Shown here one piece after another: positions 1 through 23,478 of a stretch of 30,815 bases of DNA (position 1 is its first letter; every line of letters begins with the position of its first letter). The stretch is taken from positions 1 through 30,815 of IMG/VR virus record IMGVR_UViG_3300042543_000245; one strand, written 5' to 3'. The notes beneath the pieces are model-generated. The model did not search any database, was not told where the DNA came from, and worked only from the letters and a program-made list of their open reading frames with translations. Source of the stretch: a virus. The position numbers were made by a program, and so were the translations under genes.

Positions 1-57
1 GTCGCCGCGGAGGAGGCGGAGCTTCGTCGGCTGTTTACGCGGTCCGCGTTTTCCCAT
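1..57 (-). CDS. terS: Terminase small subunit, N-terminal part (cut by window edge)
   Basis: This is the beginning of the small terminase subunit, the DNA-recognition partner that brings phage DNA to TerL for packaging. From the ATG at 57 the 19 visible codons read MGKRGPRKQPTKLRLLRGD, the classic opening of P27-family small terminases. The gene overlaps the end of the methyltransferase gene by 23 bases. It runs off the left edge of the window; the remainder is found at the right edge (30815-30410), but joining the two directly gives the wrong frame, so two (plus a multiple of three) bases must be missing at the junction. Recognition of the family from this short stretch is good, because both halves fit the same family in the right order. 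Confidence 0.8.
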   Translation of the reverse strand, partial: MGKRGPRKQPTKLRLLRGD

Positions 58-919
58 GCGTCACCTCCTCGCGTGTCGCCTTCTTGCCGGTCAGCGTTTC
101 CCACCGATTGACGATCACGTCGCAATACTGCGGGCTGATCTCCATGCCATAGCACTTGCGGCCGAGCTGCTCGGCGGCGATGAGCGTCGTGCCGGAGCCG
201 AGGAACGGGTCGTAGGCCAGGCCTTGCGGTGCGGTCGAGTTGCCCATGAGGTAGGCGAACAGCGAAACCGGCTTCATCGTCGGATGCTCTTGGTTTCGCG
301 ACGGCCTGTCGAACCGCAGCAGCGTCGTTTGCTTTCGGTCGCTGTACCACCCGTGAGCAGCACCATCCTTCCAGCCGTAAAGGCACGGCTCGTGCTGCCA
401 TTGATAGTCTTGACGACCCATCACCAGAACGTCCTTGGCCCACACAAGGCACTGCCGAACTTTCTCTCCGCAGTCTCGGATAGCACCTCGGAAGTTGAAT
501 CCCTCGCTGTCTGCGTGCCAGACATAAAAGGCCGCTCCAGGTTGCATGCTCGCAAAGGCCTGGCCGAAACAGGAAACAAGGAACGCTCGGAAGTCAGAGT
601 CTGACATAGAGTCGTTTGCGACGACCTTTCCGTCCGTCCTTCGGTTGCGTGCCTTTGCCTGTTCTGGCGTCTCGTTCATCCCAAGAGCGACGTTGTAAGG
701 AGGATCAGTGAGCATTAGGTCTGCCTTCGCCCCCGCCATTAGCCGCTCGACATCCTCGGCCTTCGTCGAGTCGCCGCAGAGCAGGCGATGATCGCCCAGC
801 GTCCACAGGTCGCCTGCCTTCGTGATCGGATCGACCGGAGGATCAGGGATTTCGTCCTCGACGATCTCGGCGTTCTCGCCCTCATAGAGTTCCGCCGCCT
901 CAGCCATGTCGGCGTACAT
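35..919 (-). CDS. DNA methyltransferase domain (beta-type, N6-adenine/N4-cytosine), downstream part of a ParB-MTase gene
   Basis: Type II-like DNA methyltransferase that would transfer a methyl group from S-adenosylmethionine to adenine N6 or cytosine N4. Visible motifs are the catalytic DPPY (motif IV, in LMLTDPPYNV), HPTMKPV, and the SAM-binding YDPFLGSGTT (motif I) followed by GMEIS. DPPY preceding the FxGxG motif is the beta-class order. Such enzymes are common in phages as solitary methylases that protect phage DNA from host restriction; no matching restriction enzyme is seen next to it. The reading frame is open upstream of the ATG at 919 to about 1093 and that upstream stretch continues the ParB-like protein encoded at 900-1295, so this is probably the C-terminal two thirds of one larger protein, separated by a one-base frameshift. 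If the frameshift is genuine, translation may begin at the ATG at 919. The stop overlaps the start of terS. Confidence 0.85.
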   Translation of the reverse strand: MYADMAEAAELYEGENAEIVEDEIPDPPVDPITKAGDLWTLGDHRLLCGDSTKAEDVERLMAGAKADLMLTDPPYNVALGMNETPEQAKARNRRTDGKVVANDSMSDSDFRAFLVSCFGQAFASMQPGAAFYVWHADSEGFNFRGAIRDCGEKVRQCLVWAKDVLVMGRQDYQWQHEPCLYGWKDGAAHGWYSDRKQTTLLRFDRPSRNQEHPTMKPVSLFAYLMGNSTAPQGLAYDPFLGSGTTLIAAEQLGRKCYGMEISPQYCDVIVNRWETLTGKKATREEVTHGKTRTA

Positions 920-1295
920 CTGCTGGAGCCCTTCGCTTCCGGTGTCGACTTCGCGGAGCAGGGCGTCGAGGGCGACCGCGTTCGTCTCGGCAAGGGCCGC
1001 GAGAGGATCGAGCGAGAGGAGCAGCTTGTCGGCCTCGGCCTCGTCGATGTCGAGGACCAGGACCGGGACCTCCTGGTCGGGCGTGGTTCTCGGCCCGCAG
1101 GTGACCGTCGACGAGGATCAGCGAGCCGTCGGGCAGCTCGCGGGCGAGCAGGGCGTCGGCGTAGCCGACCTCGGCCAGGATCCCGCGGAGGGCGTCGGCC
1201 TGGGCCTTCGGGTGTGTCCGCCAGTTCTTCGGGTTCGGCGTCAGGTCGCCGGCCCGGACGCGGCGTAGCTCGCGGACGCGGTCTCGGATCTGCAT
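900..1295 (-). CDS. ParB/sulfiredoxin-like nuclease domain, N-terminal part of a frameshifted ParB-MTase gene
   Basis: The first 65 or so residues read as a ParB-like N-terminal domain, with PNPKNWRTHPKAQ, a middle ILAEVGYADALLA and the hallmark LVDGHLRAE (the GHxR-like box). After that the predicted protein degenerates into a proline/arginine-rich shadow sequence, while the expected continuation (PDQEVPVLVLDIDEAEADK) appears in the reading frame of the downstream methyltransferase. ParB-like domains fused to DNA methylases are a familiar phage architecture. The start ATG at 1295 is preceded by GGAGG at good spacing. Removing one base at the AA of GAGAACCAC (1087/1088) would join both parts into a single 419-residue protein. 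The C-terminal half of this reading frame past about 1085 is therefore probably not meaningful. Confidence 0.75.
   Translation of the reverse strand: MQIRDRVRELRRVRAGDLTPNPKNWRTHPKAQADALRGILAEVGYADALLARELPDGSLILVDGHLRAENHARPGGPGPGPRHRRGRGRQAAPLARSSRGPCRDERGRPRRPAPRSRHRKRRAPADVRRHG
1083..1092 (-). other. Single-base frameshift site between ParB-like and methyltransferase parts
   Basis: On the minus strand the sequence GCCGAGAACCACGCCC would encode the expected RAETTPD only if one of the two adjacent A residues (1087/1088) were absent. The total span 35-1295 is 1261 bases, which becomes a multiple of three after deletion of one base. There is no obvious slippery heptamer, so a mutation or a sequencing/assembly error is likelier than programmed frameshifting. 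Confidence 0.75.
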
Positions 1296-1342
1296 TTATG
1301 GGCCTCCAGTCGTCACGGTACGGGAGTGCTACTGCGGATCAA

Positions 1343-1825
1343 CTAGCCCCCCTGTCGAAAACCTCCGGAAATACGCGTCGAGGGCTCGTGGGGTCTTCCG
1401 TCCTTTTTTGGCCCCGCGGCCGACCCCACCCCCTCGGCCATCCGGGCCTCCAGGACGCGACGGAACCGCTCTGGACGCTCGCGTGTGGCCCGATCGCGGA
1501 GCGTGCCATGCTCCGCCTCGATCTCGTGCCATGTGGCTGCCATGCGTCTGTAGGTGACGTAATCGCGTGCCTCTGGGTACGCGTGGACGATCCACACGTC
1601 GAACGTCCCCGAGGAGTGAAGCCGGACCGCGGCGTCGATCGCGTGCCAGCGAGCGGCCCTCGCGATCTCGCCGACGTGGTCGGGGTAGTCGTGGTCCGCG
1701 ATGTCGTCGGTCGTCATGGCATGGGCGAGGAGGTCCATGTCGATGATCACGTCGCCGCGTCTCGCGTGCTCGCGGACGAACGTCGTCTTCCCCGAGCAGA
1801 TATGGCCGGTGACGATGTGGATCAC
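1343..1825 (-). CDS. P-loop kinase-like protein
   Basis: Small P-loop NTPase of 160 residues that resembles phage nucleotide/polynucleotide kinase-like proteins. The N-terminus reads IVTGHICSGKTTFV, a Walker A motif within the first 16 residues, followed by DVIIDMDLLAHAM, matching the acidic motif of AAA-type kinases such as T4 PNK N-terminal domains. The substrate is not evident. The C-terminus (about residue 135 onward) is basic and proline-rich and probably disordered. The GTG start at 1825 overlaps the stop of the HNH gene as GTGA, which fixes the start and suggests translational coupling. In many phages a kinase of this type sits next to the HNH endonuclease near terS, as here. Confidence 0.75.
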   Translation of the reverse strand: MIHIVTGHICSGKTTFVREHARRGDVIIDMDLLAHAMTTDDIADHDYPDHVGEIARAARWHAIDAAVRLHSSGTFDVWIVHAYPEARDYVTYRRMAATWHEIEAEHGTLRDRATRERPERFRRVLEARMAEGVGSAAGPKKDGRPHEPSTRISGGFRQGG

Positions 1826-2118
1826 AGCCTGCCTCGCCTCCGCTGCTCTTCCCGCGTCTTCGTGCCGTGGCACGACTGGCACAGCGTCTGCAGGTTCGCG
1901 TCGTCGTCTGTCCCGCCCTCCTCGAGGGGCTGGACGTGGTCGACGTGGGCCGCCTGGCCGTAGACCACGCGAGAGCAGACGGCACAGATGAACGCGTCGC
2001 GACGCAGGATCCGCAGGCGGCGGGCCTTCCAGTCGGCGGTCTGGTAGTGGGCTCGCTCCTTCGTGACCGTGGTCCGCTTCATGCGTGGCGGCGACCATCG
2101 TTCGACTCGGGCAGGCAT
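1822..2118 (-). CDS. HNH endonuclease
   Basis: HNH-family nuclease of 98 residues. It shows two zinc-knuckle CxxC pairs (CAVC and CQSC) around the core HVDHVQPLEEGG...NLQTLCQSCHGTK, the typical beta-beta-alpha-metal nuclease fold. In HK97-like phages such free-standing HNH proteins encoded close to the terminase genes assist genome cleavage during packaging; the position here, shortly before terS in the transcription direction, fits that role. The start ATG at 2118 overlaps the stop of the upstream fibre gene as TGATG. Family assignment is secure; the role in packaging is inferred from context. Confidence 0.9.
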   Translation of the reverse strand: MPARVERWSPPRMKRTTVTKERAHYQTADWKARRLRILRRDAFICAVCSRVVYGQAAHVDHVQPLEEGGTDDDANLQTLCQSCHGTKTREEQRRRGRL

Positions 2119-3473
2119 CAGAATATCGACGTGAGGGCCGCCTGGATCGTCGTGGCCGCGAGGGCACAGCCGGCGTCGTTCAGATGGACCCCGTCGCCCG
2201 TGTAGGTGTTGATTTGAGATACCGGGTTAAACATCGAACCAGTTTCAGATATCCAGATATTTTTTGAACCGCCAACGGTTGACATAGTTGAAGCAAGCGC
2301 CGTGCGCAATGTCGCTAAGTTCGATTCGTTCGTTGTGTTTCCGGTTGGGAACGGCGACAGAACGACGCACCAGGTCGATGGGTAGAACGTGTTCCAGTAG
2401 TTAAGCCACTTTGCAAGGTTTGCCTGAGTGGTCGCGGTCGTGACGCCCTGGGAAATGTCGTTTATGCCGTGCTCCCAAAAGACCATAAACGGAGCATCGT
2501 TCAGTGTGTAGCGTCCATTAAATGCGCGAAGGTATTCGTGATGCGTGGACGTTGATCCGCTAATTGCCTTGTTGACAACCCGAGTTAGCACACCCTTTGT
2601 ATCGCGAAACCAGTTGCGCATCAGATACGGATACGATGCCGAATAGGCCGAGCCGGTTCCTGCGGTGATTGAAGTGCCGCACCAAACGACTGGGGCAAGA
2701 TCGGAAAAAACATCAAAATCGGTTTGCCATCCGTGAGTTGAATATGCAAGTTGAACAGCCGTCCGCGAACGAAGGGTAACCGTGAGCGCGGCAAACGAAG
2801 TGCCGGTCGCTTGACTCGTTGTGCTTGTGGCAGTCATCACGCCGCTAGCAACGCTAGCCGTCCAACCAGTCCCCGATGTTGAGACGACATCACAGTCGGG
2901 GGGGATCGTGTCGGTGATGGTGGTAGTTCCAGACGCCGTTGATCCGGATGAGTTTGAAGCGGTCAACGTGTAGTAAAATGTTGAGTTTCCGTTGTCGGTT
3001 GTGGCACTTTTCGTCACCGACAGACTTGCGCCCCCGGAGTTTGAAACGAAAGACCGCTGTATCGCCGGGTCTTGTGTCGGCACGGAAATAAGTGCCATTA
3101 GCATCGCGGCAGTATCTGCGCCCCAAAAAGAGTTTACGGGAATAACTAGCCCGCTTGGGCCAACCGTGTATTGAGCCGATTGCACTTGCGAGGAGCCGAG
3201 CGGGGTAGAAGTGCTTTGATAAACCAAATACGGCCCGAGCGTTTGCACGACGCAAGGAACGTTTGCAGTAATCGTAACGTTATCGATCCACTGGCCGCGA
3301 TATGCGTTCCCAATGCCAACGGAGCCGAACACAGTTCCGCCGCCGCCCTTTCGTCCGCTCCAGAAGTTGACAGAACTTCCACCGGCCACAAACGGAATGC
3401 CTTCGCTTGTGATTCTCTCGCGGATCAATGAGGGATTACGAACAGGGAAACGCGACGGAAATCCAGTGGGCAT
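2118..3473 (-). CDS. Tail fibre/tip protein with DUF11-like and SGNH hydrolase domains
   Basis: A 451-residue protein likely displayed on the tail. Residues 1-140 are unrecognised. Residues about 145-235 (LSVTKSATTDNGN ... YYTLTASNSSGSTASGTTT ... ITDTIPP) look like a DUF11/conserved-repeat beta domain common in surface proteins. Residues about 260-451 form an SGNH/GDSL-type esterase domain with CGTSIT (nucleophile Ser268; GTS in place of the common GDS), HGINDI (Asn338) and GDGVH (Asp427, His430). Such domains in tail fibres deacetylate surface polysaccharide, which is the likely role here. Start ATG at 3473 has GAGGAA five bases upstream. The gene is visibly richer in A+T than its neighbours, which suggests separate acquisition or exchange of the host-range gene. 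Confidence 0.82.
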   Translation of the reverse strand: MPTGFPSRFPVRNPSLIRERITSEGIPFVAGGSSVNFWSGRKGGGGTVFGSVGIGNAYRGQWIDNVTITANVPCVVQTLGPYLVYQSTSTPLGSSQVQSAQYTVGPSGLVIPVNSFWGADTAAMLMALISVPTQDPAIQRSFVSNSGGASLSVTKSATTDNGNSTFYYTLTASNSSGSTASGTTTITDTIPPDCDVVSTSGTGWTASVASGVMTATSTTSQATGTSFAALTVTLRSRTAVQLAYSTHGWQTDFDVFSDLAPVVWCGTSITAGTGSAYSASYPYLMRNWFRDTKGVLTRVVNKAISGSTSTHHEYLRAFNGRYTLNDAPFMVFWEHGINDISQGVTTATTQANLAKWLNYWNTFYPSTWCVVLSPFPTGNTTNESNLATLRTALASTMSTVGGSKNIWISETGSMFNPVSQINTYTGDGVHLNDAGCALAATTIQAALTSIF

Positions 3474-3487
3474 AGTATTCCTCGGAG

Positions 3488-3865
3488 TTAGTCGGCAATC
3501 GCGGCGATCCAGAGTCGCGAGCCGTTGGGCCAGAGTTGGTAGACCGTGTTCGATGCGCCTTTGTTCTCGTCTGCCGTCACCCTGACGGTCGTCAGGACGG
3601 ACGGCGTCCCGAGAGCGAGCATGGCCGCGTAGGTCGCGACTTGGGCGTAGGCCGAAGCGTCGGCGATGCCGTAGCCGGCGACTGTCGTGGGCTTGCTGGT
3701 GATCCCAGACCATGTCGTAGTGCCGGCGGGCCCCTGCGGTCCGGTCGCCCCGGTTGCGCCAGTGGCCCCGGCTGGGCCTTGCGGTCCGGTCGCCCCTGTA
3801 GGCCCTACGCCGCCAGAGACGGTGGCCTGGACTGTCTGATCGGTGACGTTTACTTCGATCGGCAT
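3488..3865 (-). CDS. Collagen-like short tail fibre protein
   Basis: A 125-residue fibre protein. After a 20-residue head (MPIEVNVTDQTVQATV) comes a Gly-X-Y stretch at about residues 19-48 (GPTGATGPQGPAGATGATG and on), which should form a collagen triple helix. The remaining C-terminal part includes SGITSKPTTVAGYGIADA, a motif common in phage tail-fibre shafts, and ends in a short beta domain with LWPNGSRLWIAAIAD. It lies between a small beta-rich protein and the SGNH-hydrolase fibre and probably trimerises as a stalk or adhesin with them. The start overlaps the stop of the upstream gene. Confidence 0.75.
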   Translation of the reverse strand: MPIEVNVTDQTVQATVSGGVGPTGATGPQGPAGATGATGATGPQGPAGTTTWSGITSKPTTVAGYGIADASAYAQVATYAAMLALGTPSVLTTVRVTADENKGASNTVYQLWPNGSRLWIAAIAD

Positions 3866-4185
3866 CAGCGGACGACCTCCCAGATCCCCTCGAGGGCCGT
3901 CTGGGCATTCCCGGCGGCCGGCGTCCAGACGAGCCGCCAGAGATACGTCCCGGCCGCGACGTTAGCCGCGGCAGCGGCCGACAGCCCGACGTTCACCTGA
4001 CCGGTCGCGATATTCACCGTCGACACCGTCAGGGCCTGGACGGTCGCGAACGTCACGGCCGACACGATCTCGGCTGAGAACGTGTAGCCGGTGAGGGCGA
4101 TCGAGAAGTCGAGCAGTTGCGACACGGCCTGGCCTTGCTTCACGATGATGTTCAGCGTGCCGGGCGTTGCGGATACGGTAGCCAT
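3865..4185 (-). CDS. Hypothetical beta-rich protein, probably tail-fibre associated
   Basis: A 106-residue protein with alternating hydrophobic strands and a pattern (IVKQGQAVSQLLDFSIALTGYTFSAEI ... GTYLWRLVWTPAAG) resembling the beta-sandwich domains of baseplate upper proteins and other phage adhesin-anchoring proteins. It precedes, and overlaps by one base-sharing junction, the collagen-like fibre gene, so a role in attaching the fibres to the tail is likely but inferred only from position and composition. No catalytic motif is visible. Confidence 0.6.
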   Translation of the reverse strand: MATVSATPGTLNIIVKQGQAVSQLLDFSIALTGYTFSAEIVSAVTFATVQALTVSTVNIATGQVNVGLSAAAAANVAAGTYLWRLVWTPAAGNAQTALEGIWEVVR

Positions 4186-4195
4186 GACGAAAAGC

Positions 4196-4540
4196 CTACG
4201 CGTCGTCTAGCGGGGTGAATCTCGGATTCCATCTCGTCTGGGTCTCGTCCTCGCTCCACCTCTCGGCTCGCAGCTCGGCGGCTCGTCGGTAGATTTCCTC
4301 GACCGGTATGTCGACGAACTCCGGCTGGGGCGGATACTCGACGCCGGGCCGCGGACCGTGCTTCCCAGGAGGCAGGTCGGAGAGTTGACCGTGAAGGGCA
4401 CGGTAGACCCGCTTCACAGGCACACCCGCAGCCGCGGCCGCCTCGGCTCGCGTTGCTCCGCCGGCGATCGCTCTCCGGACGATCCGCTCCTGGGCAGCCG
4501 TCAGGATCCGTCCGCTGTTCGCGAACCGTGGACGCCTCAC
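4196..4540 (-). CDS. HTH DNA-binding protein (candidate late regulator)
   Basis: A 114-residue protein with a helix-turn-helix of homeodomain/resolvase type at about residues 14-50 (ILTAAQERIVRRAIAGG then RAEAAAAAGVPVKRVYRAL). The C-terminal part is charged (VEEIYRRAAELRAERW) and unassigned. The GTG start at 4540 overlaps the stop of the RusA gene as GTGA, so it is expressed with the replication genes and lies just upstream of the fibre and packaging genes. It could be an activator of late transcription; this is inference from position only. A terminase-like role is less likely because TerS is identified elsewhere. Confidence 0.65.
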   Translation of the reverse strand: MRRPRFANSGRILTAAQERIVRRAIAGGATRAEAAAAAGVPVKRVYRALHGQLSDLPPGKHGPRPGVEYPPQPEFVDIPVEEIYRRAAELRAERWSEDETQTRWNPRFTPLDDA

Positions 4541-4980
4541 GGAGGCAGGCTCCGGATCGTGATCCCTGTCCGAGGTCCTTCCCCACAAATCGCGTAGCGT
4601 TTCAGGCAGCGGCCCTCGACGACCTGCGAGTCGTCCTTCCACACGGACCCGGTCTTCGTGATCGCGTCCGCGACACCTTTCGCGAGATTGTCCCAGTCGC
4701 CACACCGCAGGCCCGGCCAGGCCGGAGCCGTCGACCGCAGCTCGCCCGAGGTGGTCAGGTGGGAAAGTGGGCGGCCGAACACACAGACGACCTCGAGGAC
4801 GAACGCGGAGGAATCGTCCAGTGAGATCCTCCGACGTGCCGCCTCGGCCTTCACGATCAGGCCCACGGCCTCCTTGAACGCGACGATCCCATTGTCCGGC
4901 GTGTACATGCGACCGCCGCGGGTGCTTCGTGCCCGCGGCTGGGGAACGGCGTCGCCTGGTATGTCGACGGTGAACTCCAC
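4537..4980 (-). CDS. rusA: RusA-family Holliday junction resolvase
   Basis: Structure-specific endonuclease of 147 residues that resolves branched DNA created by phage replication and recombination. The N-terminus carries VPQPRARS (family signature PxpkxRpR) and the core reads GDWDNLAKGVADAIT followed by GSVWKDDSQVV, giving the conserved aspartates that bind magnesium. Length matches the family (about 120-150 residues). The GTG start at 4980 follows GGAGGCGG at good spacing. It lies at the end of the replication block, downstream of the replisome organiser and Sak4-type recombinase. Confidence 0.92.
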   Translation of the reverse strand: MEFTVDIPGDAVPQPRARSTRGGRMYTPDNGIVAFKEAVGLIVKAEAARRRISLDDSSAFVLEVVCVFGRPLSHLTTSGELRSTAPAWPGLRCGDWDNLAKGVADAITKTGSVWKDDSQVVEGRCLKRYAICGEGPRTGITIRSLPP

Positions 4981-5027
4981 GATCCGCCTCCGTGCGGACC
5001 TTCACCGTAGATTTCCTGCCCTGCGAA

Positions 5028-5327
5028 TCAACCGGCGAGGTGAATGTGGAGCCGGTGCGCTGCGAAGAAGTCGTAGGAGTCGTCGTCCATGAAGACGACG
5101 ATCGACAGCTCGGCCCGCTTGAATCCGTACTTGATCATCAGCCGGTCGCGGAGATCCTGGAGCCGGTCGGCTCCCTTCCCGGTGAACTTTGGGAAGACGA
5201 CGCGTATGAACGTGTGATAATCGTGGAAGTGATCGACCCAGAGCTTCGTCGGCGTCGCGACCCCGTCGCCGAACACGGCAACGAACTCCTTCTCAAGCTG
5301 CTCGGTCGTCAGGTGTAGGCAAGCCAT
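5028..5327 (-). CDS. Hypothetical protein
   Basis: A 99-residue protein with no recognised family. It is a mixed alpha/beta sequence with a histidine/aromatic-rich middle (WVDHFHDYHTFIRVVFPKF) and an acidic patch MDDDSYDFF near the end, finishing in HRLHIHLAG. The start ATG at 5327 has GGAGGG six bases upstream. It lies between a small hypothetical gene and RusA in the replication operon. No function can be assigned. Confidence 0.7.
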   Translation of the reverse strand: MACLHLTTEQLEKEFVAVFGDGVATPTKLWVDHFHDYHTFIRVVFPKFTGKGADRLQDLRDRLMIKYGFKRAELSIVVFMDDDSYDFFAAHRLHIHLAG

Positions 5328-5375
5328 CCGTGGCCCTCCGCGGTCGAGTCTATTGGCGTCCTGTGGAGGGCGGAT

Positions 5376-5603
5376 TCACGTCCTGTGTCCTCCGCCCTGT
5401 GGCCGGCTGATCCCGGCGTTCCATTTCGCGATCTTCGCGCTCGCGGCCTCCTCGGTCTCGGCCATGCGTCGCCCGATGTGAGCCTCGCGGAGTTTGCGGG
5501 CTTCGATCTCGATCGCCGGAGCGAGCCGAAGACTCGACATGCTCGCGGCGTCCTCGGCAGGATCGACCCATGGCTCCGATCCGGTGTTCAGTGGTCGTCC
5601 CAT
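5376..5603 (-). CDS. Small hypothetical protein
   Basis: A 75-residue, mostly helical, charged protein with the middle IEIEARKLREAHIGRRMAETEEAASAKIAKW expected to form a long amphipathic helix. The start overlaps the stop of the replisome-organiser-like gene as TAATG, suggesting coupled translation. In phages a small helical gene right after the initiator often encodes a partner such as a helicase loader, but no motif supports this here and it is offered only as an idea. Confidence 0.6.
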   Translation of the reverse strand: MGRPLNTGSEPWVDPAEDAASMSSLRLAPAIEIEARKLREAHIGRRMAETEEAASAKIAKWNAGISRPQGGGHRT

Positions 5604-6475
5604 TACGCGGCTCCCTCCTGTGACCTGATCTGCTCCGCGAGCTTCCGCTTCGTCGCCTCGAACGCCGCGGCGTCGCTCCCCGACCAGGCCTGCGGAGGCG
5701 GCCGGTCTTCCTGGCCTCGGAATCCTCCGCGGGCCTGGCCGTGGTCTCGCGGGTTATCGAACTGGCCCCCGAGGACCTTGTCGACGAAGCCCGGCGCGAG
5801 GAGCTGCGGCAGCGTCACCGGGTCGCGGAAGTAGCGGCAGCGAGGCAGGGCCTCGATCGCCGCGAGGGCCTTCTCGAACCAGCCGTCCTCCGACAGCCGC
5901 TCCCCGACCTTGTCGGGCGGTCCAGGCAGCCGCCAGGGGCGACCCGTGCCAGCCGCCCAGGCCTTGCGGAGCGTCTCCCAGCCGGCAGGCCCGGCAGGGG
6001 CTCGGTCCGGGTCCCCTTGCGCAGCCGTCCCGGGGGAAGAAGAAGAATTTCTATCTCCTCTCTCTCTGGCGCGTTGCGCCCCGGTCGGGGGCGCTACGCG
6101 CCCCGGCTGGGGGCGCGTAGCGCCCCCGACCTTGTCGACCTGGTGTCGGACGGTCGCCAGAGCCCTTGATTTCGCGGCTGTTGAGAACCTGGCGTCCCAT
6201 CCGGGGATACCAACGGTCCCATTTTCCGCGTCGATCACGAGCCAGCCAACGTCCTGGACCGCGTACCAGAAGGCCTCGTCGCCTCCGCAGACCTTCGACA
6301 GGAGCCGGAGCGACATCCGGGCCGACCCGTCGGAGCTGTTCAGGGCCGACCATCCCCAGAGCATCAGGAGCCGACCGACGACCTGGTCGACCTCGAGGCC
6401 GGTCCGGTCGACGAGGTCGAGGACCTCGGGCTTCTGGGGTAGGCATACGTCGTAGGGAATCCATTCACCGGCCAT
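5603..6475 (-). CDS. Replisome organiser/replication initiation-like protein
   Basis: A 290-residue protein. Residues 1-110 (GEWIPYDVCLPQKPEVLDLVDRTG split over a winged-helix-like pattern, then VVGRLLMLWGWS and SLRLLSKVCGG) resemble the N-terminal DNA-binding domain of phage replisome organisers. A low-complexity linker follows at about 118-165 (rich in R, P, G, S), and the C-terminus is helical. Such proteins bind repeats at the phage origin and recruit the host helicase. The origin is commonly inside the gene itself, and this gene does contain 22-bp tandem repeats in exactly the linker-coding part. Start at ATG 6475 is favoured over GTG 6496 because AGGAGG lies eight bases upstream. It overlaps the upstream winged-helix gene slightly. 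Confidence 0.7.
   Translation of the reverse strand: MAGEWIPYDVCLPQKPEVLDLVDRTGLEVDQVVGRLLMLWGWSALNSSDGSARMSLRLLSKVCGGDEAFWYAVQDVGWLVIDAENGTVGIPGWDARFSTAAKSRALATVRHQVDKVGGATRPQPGRVAPPTGAQRARERGDRNSSSSPGTAAQGDPDRAPAGPAGWETLRKAWAAGTGRPWRLPGPPDKVGERLSEDGWFEKALAAIEALPRCRYFRDPVTLPQLLAPGFVDKVLGGQFDNPRDHGQARGGFRGQEDRPPPQAWSGSDAAAFEATKRKLAEQIRSQEGAA
6036..6134. repeat. Iteron-like tandem repeats with large inverted repeat (candidate replication origin)
   Basis: Three consecutive 22-bp units lie at 6069-6090, 6091-6112 and 6113-6134, each beginning GCGC and containing GCGCCCC. Within them a perfect 22-bp inverted repeat (6083-6104 with 6110-6131) is separated by only five bases and could extrude as a cruciform. 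Immediately to the left is a strand-asymmetric run (6036-6067, GAAGAAGAAGAATTTC then CTCCTCTCTCTCT) that is A+T-richer than its surroundings. Iterons inside the initiator gene next to an easily melted tract is the arrangement of the lambda origin. Function is inferred. Confidence 0.6.
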
Positions 6476-6791
6476 GTGCTGCCCTCCTGTATTCACACTC
6501 CGGACAACCGCTCGCGCTCTTCACCGCTCGGCCAGTCCTCTCGACCGCGCCGGTGCGAAGTAGCTCGTGCATCCTCCGCGCGACCTGCTGCTCGGTAAGG
6601 CCGGATCGACTGCCGATCTCCGTCTTCCCGGCAGGCCCGGCCGCCAGGGCCTCGACGATCCGCTTCGCGTGGTCGCCCTTGAACTCTTCGGAACGGGCGG
6701 CCGCCGCCTTGCTCGTCGCCGGATCATCGCGGCGAGCGGCCGAAAAGATCGGCAGGGCCTCAATCGCTTCCATGCTCGTCCGTAGCGTCAT
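6465..6791 (-). CDS. Winged-helix DNA-binding protein
   Basis: A 108-residue protein with a winged-helix pattern at about residues 40-90 (AKRIVEALAAGPAGKTEIG then GLTEQQVARRMHELLRTGAV), as in MarR-like and other phage regulators. The preceding RRDDPATSKAA is a motif often found ahead of this domain in phage proteins. A lone CPEC near the C-terminus could bind metal weakly. Likely DNA-binding regulator or replication accessory; target unknown. The ATG at 6791 lies two bases after the previous stop; an alternative ATG is at 6773. Confidence 0.7.
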   Translation of the reverse strand: MTLRTSMEAIEALPIFSAARRDDPATSKAAAARSEEFKGDHAKRIVEALAAGPAGKTEIGSRSGLTEQQVARRMHELLRTGAVERTGRAVKSASGCPECEYRRAAHGR

Positions 6792-6793
6792 GA

Positions 6794-7012
6794 TCAGTCC
6801 CCAGTCCAGTTAGTGCCGACCCGCGGCCCGGCGTAGCCGAGCTGCTGCGGAGCGTTGCCCCACCGCTCGAACCAGGCCTTCCGGACGGCCAGCTCGTCGG
6901 CGTAGGGTCTCGCGCCGTCCATCGATTCCATGGCGACCGCGTTCGCGATCCGCATCGCGGCGTGCCGGTCGGCTGCCGTGTTGATCGCGTCGATCGCGTC
7001 CGTGATCGTCAT
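6794..7012 (-). CDS. Small hypothetical protein
   Basis: A 72-residue protein, alanine-rich and helical in its first half (ITDAIDAINTAADRHAAMRIA) and ending in YAGPRVGTNWTGD. No family is recognised. The ATG at 7012 is preceded by GGAGGG at five bases, which decides it over the longer frame starting at 7087. It is separated from the upstream SSB-like gene by 162 bases that contain a hairpin (7055-7091) and nothing else recognisable. Confidence 0.6.
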   Translation of the reverse strand: MTITDAIDAINTAADRHAAMRIANAVAMESMDGARPYADELAVRKAWFERWGNAPQQLGYAGPRVGTNWTGD

Positions 7013-7054
7013 CCGTCCCTCCGTGTTCGGTTGCCGCGTGTCGTGCGGCTTCCG

Positions 7055-7091
7055 CCTAGTGCCGGTCGTCAAGGCGAACGACCTCACTAGG
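7055..7091. promoter_or_regulatory. Imperfect inverted repeat in the gap before the 72-residue gene
   Basis: Arms CCTAGTG (7055-7061) and CACTAGG (7085-7091) are perfect complements, and the inner GGTCGT/ACGACC arms also pair, with one small asymmetric bulge and an eight-base loop. No T-tract follows on either strand, so a Rho-independent terminator is unlikely. It could be an operator, an mRNA-stabilising or processing hairpin, or a small RNA. It is the only structured element seen in the 162-base gap 7013-7174. Confidence 0.45.
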
Positions 7092-7174
7092 AGCCGGTGT
7101 TATGTCGCGACCGCCGGCAGCGCTCTCCCCGTGGCCGAGATAGGCAGCCACTACAGACGGGAGCGGCCGGAAGA

Positions 7175-7687
7175 TCAGAACGGAATGTCGTCCCCCGGCA
7201 TCCGCGACGCGTCGTCGACCTGCTTCGTCGTCGTCCGCTTCACCGGCGGCCTCGAGGTCGGCGGAGCGACCGCTCGCTCGACCTGCGGCTTCGCGGTAGC
7301 GGTCTCGACGACCTGCTCGGCCGGCAGGAACTCGCCGACGTTCACGAACGTCTTCCCGTTGCCGGCCTTGTGGTAGATCCGGGCTCGGACGCGACGGCCG
7401 ACCAGGTCGGTGATCTCGCCGGCGGCCCACTCCTCGCGGGTCATGCCGACGGCCTGGCGGAGGCTCGAGAGGATCCGCCGGCCCCAGTCGGCCTTCGGGA
7501 TCCTGGCGAACACCCAGCCAAACCGCTTCTCGTCGTGGACGAGCCGGAACTCCACCTTGTCGCCGTGGTCGATCACCTCGCGGACCTGGAGCGAGTGGTC
7601 GCCCTCGGGGACCAGCTCGCGATCCGGAGCCCGCGAGTCGTCGCGGACAGCAACCGGCGGAAAATCATCATCAAGACCCCAGTCCAT
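7175..7687 (-). CDS. Single-stranded DNA-binding-like protein
   Basis: A 170-residue protein. Residues about 25-115 are beta-rich with aromatic and basic residues (HSLQVREVIDHGDKVEFRL, FGWVFARIP, VRARIYHKAGNGKTFVNVG), compatible with an OB fold. Then comes a proline/threonine linker and a C-terminus of PGDDIPF. Bacterial SSB ends in DDDIPF, the acidic tip that recruits replication and repair proteins, so an SSB role is inferred. It directly follows a Sak4-like ATPase operon segment, and annealing-type recombinases are often encoded with an SSB partner. Family membership by overall sequence is not certain. Confidence 0.65.
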   Translation of the reverse strand: MDWGLDDDFPPVAVRDDSRAPDRELVPEGDHSLQVREVIDHGDKVEFRLVHDEKRFGWVFARIPKADWGRRILSSLRQAVGMTREEWAAGEITDLVGRRVRARIYHKAGNGKTFVNVGEFLPAEQVVETATAKPQVERAVAPPTSRPPVKRTTTKQVDDASRMPGDDIPF

Positions 7688-7937
7688 CGCGTGTCTCCTG
7701 TTCTTGGGATTTCGCGGTCGCGAACTCGATCACGGCGATCAAGTGGTCGCGGCCGTAGTGGTTGTGTCCGTAAGCCTTCTCGGGCTTCGGCAGGTGAGTG
7801 ATCGCCGTCCGGATCTCGTAGCGGGTCATCCGATAGCCTGCGGCCTGCGACGCGTCGACGAGGTCCGAGCAGCGAAACCAGTCGCGATCGTGGTCGTGCC
7901 GCAGGCCCGAAAACGTCAGGTGTTCGAGGCTGGTCAC
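7671..7937 (-). CDS. Hypothetical protein
   Basis: An 88-residue protein of unknown function. The pattern WFRCSDLVDASQAAGYRMTR followed by EIRTAITHLPKP suggests a small helical, perhaps winged-helix-like domain, with a histidine/glycine-rich turn (YGHNHYGRDH). The GTG start at 7937 overlaps the Sak4 gene stop as GTGA, and its own end overlaps the start of the SSB-like gene by 17 bases, so it sits in the middle of a recombination operon and may act with those two proteins. Confidence 0.65.
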   Translation of the reverse strand: MTSLEHLTFSGLRHDHDRDWFRCSDLVDASQAAGYRMTRYEIRTAITHLPKPEKAYGHNHYGRDHLIAVIEFATAKSQEQETRDGLGS

Positions 7938-8902
7938 GACGCGACCTCCTCGACCGGCTCGATCTCTTTGTGCCGCTCGTTCACCCGGTCGGTGAGCTGC
8001 GACCACTCGTCGGCCGTGATCTGGTCCGTCGAGACCAGCTCGTCGAGACGGTTCCCGATCCGCCCGAGCGTCCGGACGTTCTCCGCCTGGGCGATGAACA
8101 TCACGATCTGGCTGTAGAGCGGCAGAGCCTGTGGCTCGAATCGCTCGACGTGGGCCACGGTCATCCCTGGTGCGACCGCCTTGACGGTTTTTGTCAAGGG
8201 AGCCTCCGCCGGGGCCGCTCCGGCCAGCCAAGCCGCCAGCCGCTTGCCGGTCTCGACCGTGATCGGCTTCGGGTCTCCAGAGAAGATCCCCGTCCGGTCC
8301 TTCGAGACGGTCGCGTAGTGGCCGTCGTGAACGAGATCGAGAACGGTCGTGAACTCGTACTCGAGGCCGTCGCGGGCCTCCAGCTTCATCCCGAGCTTCG
8401 TCACCTTCTTCCGACCGTGATCCTCGACCTGGGCTGTCTCGGTCTTACTTCGCCCCGTGCAGATCACATGGGCCGACGACCGGAGGATCGCGTCGACGAA
8501 CGACCGCCACCTGGGCGTGATTACCGAGAAGGCCGACCATGTGTTCCCGCGGAACTGTGCCTTCGCGATGTCGTCGACCAGCTCCAAACACCCACCCTTG
8601 CCGCTCCAGCAGTGAGTCACGGAGTCGATCACGATCACCTCGTAGCCGGCGGCCTCGGCCCCCGAGATCGCCTCGACGTACCTCTCCGGCGTGAACGGCG
8701 GCTTCAGGTCGAGAACGTCGAAGTCGTGCAGCTCGTCGTAGAGGTCGCTCGACCCTTCCTCGGTGTCGATCACGACCGTCTTCCCTCCCAGCCCCTTCGC
8801 CAGGAGCAGGGCTCCGAACGTCTTCCCGCCGCCGCTCGGGCTCGTTAGCAGAATCCGGAGCTTCGTTGCTGATCGCCTTGCCTTCCGAATAGAAACAGTC
8901 AT
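7934..8902 (-). CDS. Sak4-like RecA-fold ATPase (phage recombinase)
   Basis: A 322-residue AAA/RecA-fold ATPase. Walker A is SPSGGGKT (residues 21-28), Walker B is EVIVID (to Asp93), and the family-typical TVVIDTEEGSSDLYDEL follows the first strand. VICTGRSKTETAQ and a glycine/lysine-rich KLGMKLEARDGLEYEF match the later part of the Sak4/AAA_24 family. The C-terminal third is a helical extension after an alanine/proline linker. Sak4 proteins promote single-strand annealing together with SSB, and the SSB-like gene lies two genes downstream. Start at ATG 8902 overlaps the previous stop region. Confidence 0.85.
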   Translation of the reverse strand: MTVSIRKARRSATKLRILLTSPSGGGKTFGALLLAKGLGGKTVVIDTEEGSSDLYDELHDFDVLDLKPPFTPERYVEAISGAEAAGYEVIVIDSVTHCWSGKGGCLELVDDIAKAQFRGNTWSAFSVITPRWRSFVDAILRSSAHVICTGRSKTETAQVEDHGRKKVTKLGMKLEARDGLEYEFTTVLDLVHDGHYATVSKDRTGIFSGDPKPITVETGKRLAAWLAGAAPAEAPLTKTVKAVAPGMTVAHVERFEPQALPLYSQIVMFIAQAENVRTLGRIGNRLDELVSTDQITADEWSQLTDRVNERHKEIEPVEEVAS

Positions 8903-9168
8903 CTCGAATACCTCCTCACGGTGTCACAGTCGATCCACCCTGTCTCACAGAACACCCGGAGCAGGGTCTCGCGGTCCGGCTCCGCCGGCCGCGAACACTT
9001 GCCATGGCCTCCAGCCAGGCCGGCATCCCGCCGGCATCCCTCTCGGTCGGGCTCCGCCCGGCCGAACTCATCCAGTGATCGGAAGTAAGCCAGCCCGGCG
9101 ATCGCGAGCCCGGCACATGCGAAGGCGATCCCGAGGACGGCCCCGACGAACAATGCGGCGGCGTTCAT
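8899..9168 (-). CDS. Small membrane protein
   Basis: An 89-residue protein with one clear N-terminal transmembrane helix (about residues 5-29, ALFVGAVLGIAFACAGLAIA) followed by a charged tail with several cysteines and the end WIDCDTVRRYSR. No family is recognised. The ATG at 9168 overlaps the preceding stop as ATGA and has GAGGTG six bases upstream, favoured over the in-frame GTG at 9174. Early phage membrane proteins may act in superinfection exclusion, but nothing here shows that. Confidence 0.65.
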   Translation of the reverse strand: MNAAALFVGAVLGIAFACAGLAIAGLAYFRSLDEFGRAEPDREGCRRDAGLAGGHGKCSRPAEPDRETLLRVFCETGWIDCDTVRRYSR

Positions 9169-9425
9169 TTCCACACCTCGCCTTCCTGGTCCTCGAGGTA
9201 GGGCATCGCGTGTTCGAGGGCCGCCCGAGCCCGGAGTAGGACGGCCCGGTTCACCGGGCAGCCGCAGGCGTCGACCTCGTCGATCAACGCCTCCAGCGAC
9301 CGCAGCGGACGCCAGGCCGCGATCGCCAGGTGGCGAGCGAGCCGGGCACCGCGAGCGATCGGGTGGTGCCGGTCGTGGGTGTTCCGGTGGAGGGCCGTGT
9401 CGTTTCGCGAGATCATGCGTCCCAT
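9165..9425 (-). CDS. Small hypothetical protein
   Basis: An 86-residue helical, arginine-rich protein. The middle (IARGARLARHLAIAAWRPLRS) and the end (LLRARAALEHAMPYLEDQEG) look like two amphipathic helices joined by a VDACGCPVN turn. The ATG at 9425 has AAGGAG about seven bases upstream, which sets the start well inside the longer open frame. Part of an early operon with overlapping junctions. Function unknown. Confidence 0.6.
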   Translation of the reverse strand: MGRMISRNDTALHRNTHDRHHPIARGARLARHLAIAAWRPLRSLEALIDEVDACGCPVNRAVLLRARAALEHAMPYLEDQEGEVWK

Positions 9426-9436
9426 GGTCTGGCTCC

Positions 9437-9703
9437 TTAGAAGGGCAGGATCGCGCCGTCCGGCCACGGCCGGCCGTCGATCACGCGGAGCGTCTTCTCG
9501 TCGTCGGTCTCGACCACGACGAGCGGCCGGTCGCCTTCCTGGATTCGGACCACGCGGCCCGCTTCCCATTCGGTGTCCGTGTGGGTCTTCAGCCGGTAGG
9601 CGATCCGGTCGCCGATGCTCGGCAGGTGACAGGCCGTCGGCCGTCCGTAGGTCTCGGCCATGCCGTCCGCTGCGGCCCGATATTCGCGTTCGTGGGCGTC
9701 CAT
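9437..9703 (-). CDS. Small hypothetical protein (SH3-like beta domain)
   Basis: An 88-residue protein. From residue 29 on it alternates short strands (SIGDRIAYRLKTHTDTEWEA, GRVVRIQEGDRPLVVVETD, RVIDGRPWPDGAILPF), a pattern of small SH3-like barrels. Its first 25 residues are polar and helical. The ATG at 9703 follows AAAGGA at six bases. It is the first clear gene of the leftward early operon after the control region. Function unknown. Confidence 0.65.
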   Translation of the reverse strand: MDAHEREYRAAADGMAETYGRPTACHLPSIGDRIAYRLKTHTDTEWEAGRVVRIQEGDRPLVVVETDDEKTLRVIDGRPWPDGAILPF

Positions 9704-9730
9704 CTCGCGTCCTTTCGTTGATGGTCTGAA

Positions 9731-9745
9731 GTGAACACGCGTACA
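9731..9745. repeat. 15-bp direct repeat, copy A (GTGAACRCGYGTACA)
   Basis: GTGAACACGCGTACA lies 28 bases upstream of the start of the 88-residue gene on the minus side. A second copy with two changes is at 10568-10582, just before the integrase. The pair brackets the int/early control region. Confidence 0.4.
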
Positions 9746-9834
9746 TGCGTTTCGTCAAACGTTTTTAGGTGTGGTTTCGTCCGTGAAAAACACTGAGCGG
9801 AGGAGTCGAAAAGCTTCGTCGACGTTTGCGTTTA

Positions 9835-9849
9835 TCGGTAAACGAGTCA
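9835..9849 (-). repeat. 15-bp control-region repeat, copy 1 (TGACNCGWTTACCGA)
   Basis: Reads TGACTCGTTTACCGA on the minus strand. It overlaps the stop codon of the 47-residue gene at 9847-9990 and lies about 130 bases before the next gene. It is one of three copies in 600 bases. Confidence 0.6.
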
Positions 9850-9990
9850 GCGAATGAAAGCGTTTGCGATGGTCACGAGAAGATCGATCGCGTCGTGGAT
9901 CGCCTTCGTTGCTGGCGAATCGCAGCCAAGCTCCTGGCCTGCCCTGACCAGAACGAGAGAGTGGATCGCGGCCGTCCAATGGCGTCGCAT
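9847..9990 (-). CDS. Small helical protein, 47 residues
   Basis: A short gene in the control region, easily overlooked. From the ATG at 9990 it encodes MRRHWTAAIHSLVLVRAG and on through CDSPATKAIHDAIDLLVTIA, ending ANAFIR with TGA at 9847. The frame has a Shine-Dalgarno-like GGAG seven bases upstream, and the predicted protein alternates hydrophobic and polar residues as expected for two short helices. A different frame here (9755-9979) gives an arginine-rich product typical of a shadow. The stop codon lies within a copy of the 15-bp repeat. Function unknown; could be an early regulator. Confidence 0.5.
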   Translation of the reverse strand: MRRHWTAAIHSLVLVRAGQELGCDSPATKAIHDAIDLLVTIANAFIR

Positions 9991-10064
9991 GTCAGAACTC
10001 CAAGCCACTGCCGATCAATCGCGGACTACACGTCAGCGATCAACGGCCAATACGATTACGTTTG

Positions 10065-10079
10065 TCGGTAATCGCGTCA
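10065..10079 (-). repeat. 15-bp control-region repeat, copy 2
   Basis: Reads TGACGCGATTACCGA on the minus strand, preceded by TTG... so that TTGACG resembles a -35 box. It lies about 75 bases upstream of the 47-residue gene. Confidence 0.6.
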
Positions 10080-10109
10080 AGGCCAGTTCAGTGATTTTTT
10101 TACTGGGCC

Positions 10110-10136
10110 AAAAGCTCGGCTATTTTGCGAGCTTTT
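10110..10136. terminator. Hairpin terminator at the end of the excisionase-like gene
   Basis: AAAAGCTCG (10110-10118) and CGAGCTTTT (10128-10136) form a perfect 9-bp stem with a nine-base loop, extended by further T residues on the plus strand and flanked by A residues on the minus strand. The stop codon of the excisionase-like gene lies in the loop. It could stop transcription in either direction. Confidence 0.6.
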
Positions 10137-10374
10137 TTCGCGGTCGCTTAGACCGAGCGGCCGCCGCTTTCGCCTCGGCCTTGCGGACGGTCGAGTTTGG
10201 GGCGAGCTGCCCGCGGAGAGACTTGCATCCGTCCACGCTAACCATCCAGGCACGGCCGTTGAACTTGAAGCCTTCGAGCTTGCCGTCTCGGATTCGGAGC
10301 CGGATCAGACCGTCGGTGCAGCCTGCGATCTCGCAGGCCTCCTCGACCGAGCACCACTTGCCGTCAGGGGTCAT
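10120..10374 (-). CDS. Excisionase-like MerR-type HTH DNA-binding protein
   Basis: An 84-residue basic DNA-binding protein. The first half (GKWCSVEEACEIAGCTDGLI then IRDGKLEGFKFNGRAWMVSV) is the winged-helix/MerR-like fold shared by phage excisionases and HTH_17 proteins; the second half is lysine/arginine/alanine-rich (KAEAKAAAARSKRPRKKLAK). It lies next to and divergent from the integrase, the usual place for an excisionase or an early regulator, so it probably directs integrase toward excision or acts as the lysis/lysogeny switch. The second ATG (10374) is chosen because AAGGG sits nine bases before it but abuts the first ATG (10383). A 15-bp repeat with a -35-like TTGACC lies just upstream. 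Confidence 0.75.
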   Translation of the reverse strand: MTPDGKWCSVEEACEIAGCTDGLIRLRIRDGKLEGFKFNGRAWMVSVDGCKSLRGQLAPNSTVRKAEAKAAAARSKRPRKKLAK

Positions 10375-10402
10375 CGTTGCCATCCCTTGAAATGTACCGA
10401 CA

Positions 10403-10417
10403 TCGGTAAACGGGTCA
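10403..10417 (-). repeat. 15-bp control-region repeat, copy 3
   Basis: Reads TGACCCGTTTACCGA on the minus strand, 29 bases upstream of the chosen start of the excisionase-like gene, and overlaps the -35-like TTGACC. This placement suggests an operator or promoter element. Confidence 0.6.
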
Positions 10418-10567
10418 AACTGTCCAACCTGCCCGACCCTCGCGACCTGCCCAGCCGGCGCGACCGTTTGCATTGGTCGGCCGGCGAGGAAAGAGTCGAG
10501 GTGTCGGGCAGATTTCGAGTGGAGGCGAGGGGAGTACAAACGTTCAGGTGAGGGGAGTGGAATAGTG

Positions 10568-10582
10568 GTGAACGCGTGTACA
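10568..10582. repeat. 15-bp direct repeat, copy B (GTGAACRCGYGTACA)
   Basis: GTGAACGCGTGTACA, 45 bases upstream of the integrase start. It differs from the copy at 9731-9745 at two positions. It contains the palindrome TGTACA. Confidence 0.4.
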
Positions 10583-10627
10583 GTCCGGTAGGCTGCCCGG
10601 CATCTAAACAAAAAAGGAAGTGATGCC

Positions 10628-11641
10628 ATGCGTTCAATGCCGTTGCGTGATGCGTTTCGTCGGTATGCCTTGCTCCGTGAGTTGAAGCCCCACACGGTCT
10701 CGCTCTACGGGATGCTCTTCGATCGTCTGGAGCGATTCTTGAAACGACCGCCAACGGTCGGGGACCTCGAAGACGTGGTCGTCGCGGAGTATTTGGAATG
10801 GCGACGAGTCACGCCTGGGTGGCGTGATCGCCTGCCGAAGCCGGCCACGATCAGGAAGGACCGGAACATGATCCGGGCCGTCTGGGAATACCTCGCCCGT
10901 AAGAAAATCACTACAGAGTTTCCCGAGGTCCCGCGTGTCAAAGTCCCGAAGACGATCCCTCTGGGTCGTGCCTACACGGCCGACGAGGTCGGCTCCCTGA
11001 TCAGGGCAGCGAAGCGTCGGATCGGAAGGACGGGCGGCCTGCCGTCGCGGTGGTGGTGGTCGACGCTCATCTACGCGGCCGTATGCACGGGCGAGCGATT
11101 CGAGGCCCTCACGTCCCTACGCTGGGGGCAGGTTGACCTCGACCGCCGTCGCGTGATCTTCCTGGCCGGGACGCGGAAGGGCTCGACACGCGACATCGAG
11201 AGGGCGGTGACGCCGCAGCTCGCCGCGATGCTCGCGGAGCACCGTCGCGGGCCGGACGACCTGGTCTGGCCGTGGGACCGGGCGACCCGCAGCCACTGGG
11301 CCTCTCTACAGGTCCTGTGCCGATCTGCCGGCGTCGAGTATCGGGGGCGAGGCTTCCACGGATTCCGCCGCATGGCCGCCTCCTACGCGGCCCTGGCGGG
11401 CGGAGCCGCCGCGGCGACCCAGCTCCTCGACCACAGCGACCCGGCCCTCCAGGCCGTCTATGTGGACCCGCTGATCTGCCCGCGGGACACCTGCTCGGTC
11501 GACACCCTGCCGCCGCTGGACCTGGGCGAACTCGACGCACGACAACCGGACCAGCGGCCGACGGATTTTGAGTCCGCCGGCCGCGGTCCGTCTACGTCAA
11601 CGGTAGCGGATCACCGCGTACCACCGACGCGTGACCGGTGA
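10628..11641 (+). CDS. int: Tyrosine-type site-specific integrase
   Basis: Phage integrase of 337 residues, the only plus-strand gene. The N-terminal part (residues 5-100) is a core-binding SAM-like domain (LKPHTVSLYGMLFDRLERFL). The catalytic domain shows Arg157 in TGERFEALTSLRW, Lys184 in GTRKG, His244 and Arg247 in FHGFRR, His269 in LLDHSD and the nucleophile Tyr278 in AVYVDP, a complete active site. It recombines attP with a host att site, so the phage is temperate. The ATG at 10628 follows AAGGAAG. About 59 residues extend beyond the tyrosine, and the last 45 bases overlap the convergent secreted-protein gene. Confidence 0.95.
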   Translation: MRSMPLRDAFRRYALLRELKPHTVSLYGMLFDRLERFLKRPPTVGDLEDVVVAEYLEWRRVTPGWRDRLPKPATIRKDRNMIRAVWEYLARKKITTEFPEVPRVKVPKTIPLGRAYTADEVGSLIRAAKRRIGRTGGLPSRWWWSTLIYAAVCTGERFEALTSLRWGQVDLDRRRVIFLAGTRKGSTRDIERAVTPQLAAMLAEHRRGPDDLVWPWDRATRSHWASLQVLCRSAGVEYRGRGFHGFRRMAASYAALAGGAAAATQLLDHSDPALQAVYVDPLICPRDTCSVDTLPPLDLGELDARQPDQRPTDFESAGRGPSTSTVADHRVPPTRDR

Positions 11642-11908
11642 GAATGCGACGCCTTCGTCGGCGATCGGACGTGTACCAAAAAAGCAGCACGACCGGCGAG
11701 CCTGCTCGGGTGTCGAGCCCATGCCGATCCCTTCCATCTGGCCGCAGCCAGAATGAACGAGCGAGCCGCGTCGAGCGATCACTGTCGCGTGCGACTGAGC
11801 ACAGCTCCCGTTCACACAGACGACCGACCGCGGCCGGGCGATGATCACGTCCTGAGCCACGGCGGCCGAGGCGACGAGCGACAACACGGACAGGAGAAAC
11901 AGACGCAT
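11597..11908 (-). CDS. Small secreted cysteine-containing protein
   Basis: A 103-residue protein with a clear signal peptide (MRLFLLSVLSLVASAAVA, cleavage likely before Gln at residue 19). The mature part has five cysteines or more and ends in the pattern STPEQARRSCCFFGTRP...GVAFSPVTRRWYAVIRYR. From memory, the CCF..GxR...WYAV ending occurs in small secreted proteins of planctomycetes; this is the main, weak, hint to the host. The ATG at 11908 has AAGGA eight bases upstream. It is the last gene of the late transcript and overlaps the convergent integrase gene by 45 bases. It may be a lysogenic-conversion or cell-surface factor. Confidence 0.7.
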   Translation of the reverse strand: MRLFLLSVLSLVASAAVAQDVIIARPRSVVCVNGSCAQSHATVIARRGSLVHSGCGQMEGIGMGSTPEQARRSCCFFGTRPIADEGVAFSPVTRRWYAVIRYR

Positions 11909-11965
11909 AGGCGAATCCTTTCGCGTAGGTGGGAACCGACCAGCCACTAGCAGACCGGATCGTCC

Positions 11966-12463
11966 CTACGAGTCCAGCGGCTCGGGAGCCTCACAGCCCG
12001 GCCCGCGGAGCGTGCCAGCGTTCAAGTGGGGCCAGAGGGCCTCGGAGTGGATCGCGGCGAGGAGGCCCCACGCCGCGTGTGGCAGGTGATCCTCCGAGCG
12101 GTCGCCGGCGAGGTACTGGTAGATGTGGCGGATCGCGTGATTCAGGAGGTCGTTCACCGGCATTCCGGCCTCCCAGTTGAAGTCGGAGTATTTCTCGGCC
12201 CCTTCGGCACACGTCCGGGCGACGGCCTCCAGGCCGATCGGTGAGATCAGGTCGTAGCGAGTCGCCTCCGCGTCGCTCGACCTCACAGCCCCAGTCGTAT
12301 AGGTCACGGTCCCGCCGTTCGTCGTCTTCATGTTTCGCTCCTTCAGCTCTCGGATCATTCGCAGAGCGAACGAGGCTAGAGAACCTCCAGTGCCAGTCCA
12401 GCAGTTTGCCGGACCGAGCCTGCGGCATAGCTGCTCCGCGGCGGCGAGCTCGTCTTCGGTCAC
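11966..12463 (-). CDS. dATP/dGTP diphosphohydrolase-like protein (DUF5664/MazG-related)
   Basis: A protein of 165 residues whose last 121 form a phage dATP/dGTP diphosphohydrolase-type (MazG-related, all-helical) domain: RYDLISPIGLEAVARTCAEG, EGAEKYSDFNWEAGMPVND, LLNHAIRHIYQYLAGDRSED, HLPHAAWGLLAAIHSE. Family members hydrolyse purine dNTPs and may adjust nucleotide pools. Two starts are plausible: GTG 12463, overlapping the preceding stop as GTGA, and ATG 12331, which has a strong AAGGAG six bases upstream and begins the conserved domain. Either a longer protein with a 44-residue extension is made, or both forms are, or a short separate function lies upstream. No purZ-like gene is present, so a Z-genome role is unlikely. 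Confidence 0.8.
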   Translation of the reverse strand: MTEDELAAAEQLCRRLGPANCWTGTGGSLASFALRMIRELKERNMKTTNGGTVTYTTGAVRSSDAEATRYDLISPIGLEAVARTCAEGAEKYSDFNWEAGMPVNDLLNHAIRHIYQYLAGDRSEDHLPHAAWGLLAAIHSEALWPHLNAGTLRGPGCEAPEPLDS

Positions 12464-12744
12464 GGCAGCCGGTATCCCAGCGACCACAGGATCCGGGCGA
12501 GATCGCGGCCGGCCCCGGAGACGGTCTCCTCGGCCAAGTCGGGGAAAAGCTGATGGAGGCCCTCATGGATCTCCGTCTCGAGGCGAGCCCGTCCCCGGAG
12601 CCGCTGGTCGATCAAAACCTTCCTTTCGAGGTCCGGCCGTTTCTCGTCTGGAGTGATCGACCAGCCCGCGGCCCGGCCCCGTAGCCTCGCATACCTCCAC
12701 AGGACGCGGAGGCCGCGGATCTGGAAGTGATGGTCGCCGCTCAC
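12460..12744 (-). CDS. Minimal HExxH zinc metallopeptidase-like protein
   Basis: A 94-residue protein. The motif EIHEGLHQLFPDLAEE gives a HExxH zinc site (His60, Glu61, His64) with glutamates at about 72-73 that could be the third ligand, the layout of very small gluzincin-type metallopeptidases. The N-terminal half is a beta-rich, basic section (FQIRGLRVLWRYARLRG) and the end (RDLARILWSLGYRLP) is helical. Similar short HExxH proteins occur in phages, but their substrate is unknown. The GTG start at 12744 overlaps the metallophosphoesterase stop as GTGA, and its stop overlaps the next start as GTGA. Confidence 0.7.
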   Translation of the reverse strand: MSGDHHFQIRGLRVLWRYARLRGRAAGWSITPDEKRPDLERKVLIDQRLRGRARLETEIHEGLHQLFPDLAEETVSGAGRDLARILWSLGYRLP

Positions 12745-13760: not shown

Positions 13761-13816
13761 CCGGCCCTCCGTGTTGCGGTCGGCGGCCGTCCATGGCCGC
13801 GGGCCTTCACCCTACG

Positions 13817-17853: not shown

Positions 17854-17854
17854 A

Positions 17855-18878: not shown

Positions 18879-18898
18879 CGTGACCGGCCTCCCTTACG

Positions 18899-19267: not shown

Positions 19268-19279
19268 TTCTACAGCTCC

Positions 19280-19624: not shown

Positions 19625-19680
19625 GGTCTGCTCCTGTGTCGGGCGTGGTCGATTTTATGGGGTGACGTGCGGGGACAATC

Positions 19681-20094: not shown

Positions 20095-20097
20095 GGA

Positions 20098-21511: not shown

Positions 21512-21542
21512 GCTCGCCTCCGGAGGTCCCTATAGAGAGAGA

Positions 21543-21572
21543 GCCGGGGCCGGCATCCCTGCCAGCCCCGGC
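21543..21572 (-). terminator. Hairpin between capsid and connector genes
   Basis: GCCGGGGC (21543-21550) pairs perfectly with GCCCCGGC (21565-21572), and the inner GGCA/TGCC extends the stem after one mismatch, with a four-base loop. On the minus strand it is followed by TCTCTCTCTAT, only partly T-rich. A partial terminator after the major capsid gene would keep capsid messages more abundant than downstream ones. It fills the 85-base gap 21512-21596. Confidence 0.6.
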
Positions 21573-21596
21573 CCCCGAGAATCACATCGTCGAGGG

Positions 21597-23471: not shown

Positions 23472-23478
23472 GGGATCC

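Follow-up and report, generated by a model that had tools for sequence, protein, structure and literature searches.

Genes and features at the window ends

The sequence analysed here (the window) has 30,815 bases and comprises an entire IMG/VR record. On the minus strand, the genes around its two ends run in the order HNH endonuclease, kinase-like ORF, predicted cos site, ParB-methylase, terS, terL, and HK97-type portal, protease and capsid. The genes discussed below are:

1 to 57, minus strand: 5′ part of terS, residues 1-19, MGKRGPRKQPTKLRLLRGD, the N-terminal arm of a P27-type small terminase
30410 to 30814, minus strand: 3′ part of terS, from ADEP... to the stop codon, assigned by PF05119, phrog_83 and relatives
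28804 to 30480, minus strand: terL, large terminase with PF03354 ATPase and PF20441 nuclease domains; the 5′ end of the ORF is probably over-extended
35 to 1295, minus strand: ParB-like and N6/N4 DNA methyltransferase gene (ParB-methylase; PF01555 on 35-919; phrog_498)
1343 to 1825, minus strand: P-loop kinase-like ORF (GHICSGKTTF), spanning the predicted cos site
1822 to 2118, minus strand: HNH endonuclease (PF01844), the right-end gene adjoining cos
10628 to 11641, plus strand: tyrosine integrase (phrog_1; Pfam score just under the cut-off), interior on either map

The portal (TIGR01537, 190.3 against a cut-off of 112.05) and the capsid protein (TIGR01554, 112.6 against a cut-off of 27.5) are both of HK97 type, and an HNH gene lies beside the predicted cos as it does in HK97-type cos phages. 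The ParB-methylase is a single ORF of 407-414 aa in several relatives and is split here into ORFs at 1295-900 and about 1117-35 by one extra base near position 1088 (GAGAACC, versus GAGACC in all eight aligned relatives), which is either a real mutation or a sequencing error. A separate observation concerns the right arm, where the product of positions 2118-3908 contains a GDSL lipase/acylhydrolase domain (PF13472) and may be an esterase associated with the tail.

The two window ends carry two parts of one terS gene

Translation of positions 57 to 1 on the minus strand gives MGKRGPRKQPTKLRLLRGD, and translation of positions 30814 to 30410 gives ADEPVPPAG...IEGRA*, which matches PF05119 (Terminase_4) with 74.9 bits (cut-off 24.7). 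The original prediction that the two ends are two parts of one P27-type terS was borne out, as the gene is intact in 36 of 36 close relatives among viral contigs; the start given for the second part, 30815, was one base off, this base being the last of the preceding codon. When viral contigs were searched with the 3′ part of terS, 51 relatives were found, the 36 closest of which make up the close-relative set. The intact protein of one relative (L002) is 160 aa long and scores 65.4 bits against TIGR01558 (sm_term_P27; cut-off 45.6), and a phmmer search against solved chains gave no structural match for this TerS at an E value below 0.7.

In order to determine the size of the missing piece, the two ends were placed on the relatives. 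The gap between the homologues of window positions 1 and 30815 is exactly 20 nt in 36/36 close relatives, the homologue of base 30815 is a C in all of them, and each reads RGD-PSKEGKH-ADEP across the junction, the missing 20 nt encoding PSKEGK and two bases of the His codon. In those relatives to which both ends could be aligned, blastn likewise placed the two homologues at a distance of 21 positions. It had been foreseen that the gap would measure two bases plus a multiple of three, and 20 is 2 + 18, such that joining the ends directly shifts the frame; counting the missing bases and translating the joined gene, which had been proposed as the check, thus gave 20 nt and a gene that reads through in the relatives. 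Positions 57-1 share 48-56 of 57 bases with the close relatives, an identity that excludes chance.

The map is circular or concatemeric

No terminal repeat or overlap was found between the window ends, the best match being 11 bases, which is at chance level; the absence of an end repeat is also why the record carries the class linear. However, one relative (G004; 29,466 bases) runs collinearly from window position 16778 to 30815, through the 20 nt, and on from position 1 to 13966. Its identity to the window is 85-96% in the aligned blocks on both sides of the junction, and its integrase region is contiguous. As this contig crosses the junction and was opened elsewhere, the gene order is circular or concatemeric, in agreement with the circular map originally proposed.

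Assemblies of circles from short reads usually carry end repeats of k-mer length (PMC8116208), whereas the window has none. Circular contigs made by the assembler Flye often lack tens of bases where they start or end (PMC6966772); the loss seen here resembles such gapped circularisation, and a trim of this type may be one cause. Two causes had been suggested for the missing piece, an assembly trim and the loss of ends at a cut site. The former is the likelier, and the latter is not supported, as the recurrent contig end in relatives lies at window position 1383, outside terS and about 1.4 kb from the break. The likeliest cause of the 20-nt loss is accordingly an assembly trim or a local coverage gap; the ends of the window are an assembly artefact at an arbitrary opening point, and not a packaging cut. 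Widely noisy long-read sequence was considered and rejected, since a single frame-changing difference tied to a gene break (the one near 1088) was found in stretches with relatives at at least 93% identity.

Contig ends of relatives define a predicted cos site

For 11 terS relatives, the first base of the contig is exactly the homologue of window position 1383 (minus strand), 88-89 nt upstream of the ParB-methylase start codon. This was extended to a survey of 80 ParB-methylase relatives, of which 50 were informative in having both a recognisable CCG[GC]NNGTTTT block, used to place the contigs, and a contig start within 3 kb. In half of these (25/50, 20 distinct sequences) the contig start precedes the block by exactly 15 nt, while any other start position is shared by at most two contigs. 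A second block, AGGGGGG at 31-37 from the left end, was not used for placement and is also conserved. Fixed ends beside the terminase genes are therefore seen by proxy, in contigs of relatives.

On the opposite side, three contigs (L201, L221 and L181) stop adjoining a G-rich arm that they have in common with the window and, when aligned to relatives that cross the site, halt 9 nt short of the left-end base. These three, all from more distant relatives, are the only right-end contigs found, and a second pattern scan for further right ends added none; with right ends so few and distant, the predicted overhang length may be off by a base or two. Library end repair removes 3′ overhangs (PMC5557969), and left and right contig ends lying 9 nt apart therefore predict a 9-nt 3′ cohesive end, the 3′ polarity following from this end-repair chemistry. 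The predicted features of the site are:

1384 to 1392, minus strand: predicted cos overhang of 9 nt, 5′-CCCACGAGC-3′, with the left chromosome end at 1383 and the right chromosome end at 1393
1393 to 1430, minus strand: right side of cos, GTGGGGTC...GAC, with an inverted-repeat arm, GACCCCAC, that runs into the overhang
1358 to 1368, minus strand: conserved CCGGAGGTTTT block, a candidate TerS-binding site, whose first base is position 16 counted from the predicted left end

In the block at 16-26 inside the left end, the G at 22 is invariant and is followed by TTTT at 23-26; the GGGGTGGGGTCGGC part of the right cos side is widely conserved in relatives. Where circular forms are present, the position of cos within a contig is random (PMC5557969); the window crosses cos intact, which indicates that it was assembled from joined DNA.

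Several further observations were made at this site. As the kinase-like ORF continues through the predicted cos, its last codons and stop would be carried by the opposite end of the linear chromosome; the ORF also spans cos in some relatives and ends before cos in others, and in close relatives L002-L004 and L010-L012 it (window 1434-1820) is missing and the HNH gene directly adjoins cos. In two contigs (L033 and L035) the first 17 bases pass the left end and consist of the 9-nt overhang and 8 unusual bases unlike the common upstream arm. A contig of 30,968 bases (G007) was considered as a full cos-to-cos molecule and rejected, as it has a cos end on one side only and its other end lacks the cos motif and does not align to the window.

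In L148, L200, L207 and others, one HNH-cos arm is joined to either of two downstream sets, the ParB-methylase with this TerS or another TerS directly, and the switch between them falls within about 15 nt of cos. A conserved block specific to each downstream set lies 16-27 nt in from the end. A tentative reading, which we hold to be somewhat less than an even chance, is that cos serves as an exchange point between module sets, at which the HNH-cos arm (up to CCTCGACGCG) could be combined with either TerS set and packaging specificity swapped together with the cognate TerS.

Alternative explanations

If the ends of the window were instead the true ends of the virion DNA, cos would be cut within terS and the 20 bases would be an overhang removed during library preparation. 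A break inside terS does lie near the usual location of a packaging site, and the loss of 3′ overhangs in end repair (PMC5557969) would account for the gap. However, none of the contigs of the 36 close relatives ends there, whereas 11 of them end at 1383, the window passes the 1383 site unbroken, and 20 nt exceeds the largest cohesive ends known to the authors of PhageTerm, at 19 nt (PMC5557969), leaving a cut in terS extremely improbable. Headful (pac) packaging, which would yield circularly permuted, terminally redundant virion DNA and random contig ends, accounts for both the circular map and the arbitrary opening point, but not for half of the informative relatives' contigs beginning at one exact base that the right ends mirror 9 nt off; TerS, portal and capsid are moreover of P27/HK97 type and an HNH gene adjoins the site. 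We consider it highly improbable. The term "circularly permuted" in the original prediction was, in the headful sense, not upheld: the contig is permuted but the virion DNA is not, since the recurrent end in relatives is fixed, and a fixed recurrent end indicates cos packaging.

The same junction would arise from a tandem lysogen, and an integrase is present, such that the window could represent part of a prophage, integrated or tandem, with its ends falling in two copies of terS. Against this, an integrated prophage would show flanking host DNA and an integrase near one end, and neither is seen in the window; host DNA is also absent from G004, and a single search of the bacterial and archaeal genome collection with the terL protein found no relative. 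In the alignment search for a host, the best match was a 3.5-kb contig binned as Alphaproteobacteria, at 52% identity. A prophage fragment is thus very unlikely, in line with the earlier argument against an integrated prophage, as the ends adjoin in terS, the integrase is interior and contiguous in G004, and host flanks are absent.

The window is very probably a near-complete circle of a temperate HK97-like phage, opened arbitrarily in terS, whose packaging cut lies at cos 1384-1392 and not in terS. The genome would measure about 30,835 bp provided that nothing beyond the 20 missing bases was lost. It would have been assembled as a circle from DNA with joined cohesive ends, whether circular, concatemeric or ligated, and the assembly opened inside terS with the loss of about 20 nt there. 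During packaging, the terminase and the neighbouring HNH nuclease would make a staggered cut at 1384-1392 that leaves 9-nt 3′ overhangs, TerS probably recognising the CCGGAGGTTTT block that lies 16-26 nt in from the left end. Entry into the capsid would begin with the left end, which carries ParB-methylase, terS and terL; the HNH side would be the right end.

A contig classed as linear can in this way be read as a near-complete phage circle, with the exact size of its missing piece given, and the packaging site is moved to a place that the contig had hidden, which provides a useful cos annotation. Tallying the stop points of relatives' contigs offers a cheap and testable way of mapping cos in uncultured phages.

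Comparison with known systems

We regard the system as an ordinary cos phage of HK97-like type. HK97 has a 10-nt 3′ overhang, and its HNH protein gp74 stimulates cleavage (PMC11331095); counted from the cut, the TerS site of HK97 covers 15-29 and contains an A tract and a G at 21 that is key (PMC11331095). The phage described here resembles HK97 in its fixed ends by the terminase genes (here seen in relatives), adjacent HNH gene and overhang of about 10 nt (here predicted), in the placing of a conserved block, 15-29 nt in from the left end, where a G precedes an A/T tract, and in its HK97-type portal and capsid. It differs in the predicted overhang of 9 nt rather than 10 nt, in the invariant G at 22 (in our own numbering) before a T tract as compared with the key G at 21, in the ParB-methylase gene that lies between cos and terS, and in a TerS without a phmmer match to any solved chain. 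Within the P27 family (TIGR01558/PF05119), of which gp1 of Gordonia phage Bunnybear is an example, the likeness consists of a score above the curated cut-off and adjacent terS and terL genes, whereas the identity of this TerS to those of sequenced isolates is at most about 37%, and terS of Bunnybear starts 56 nt from the genome end as compared with about 1.3 kb here.
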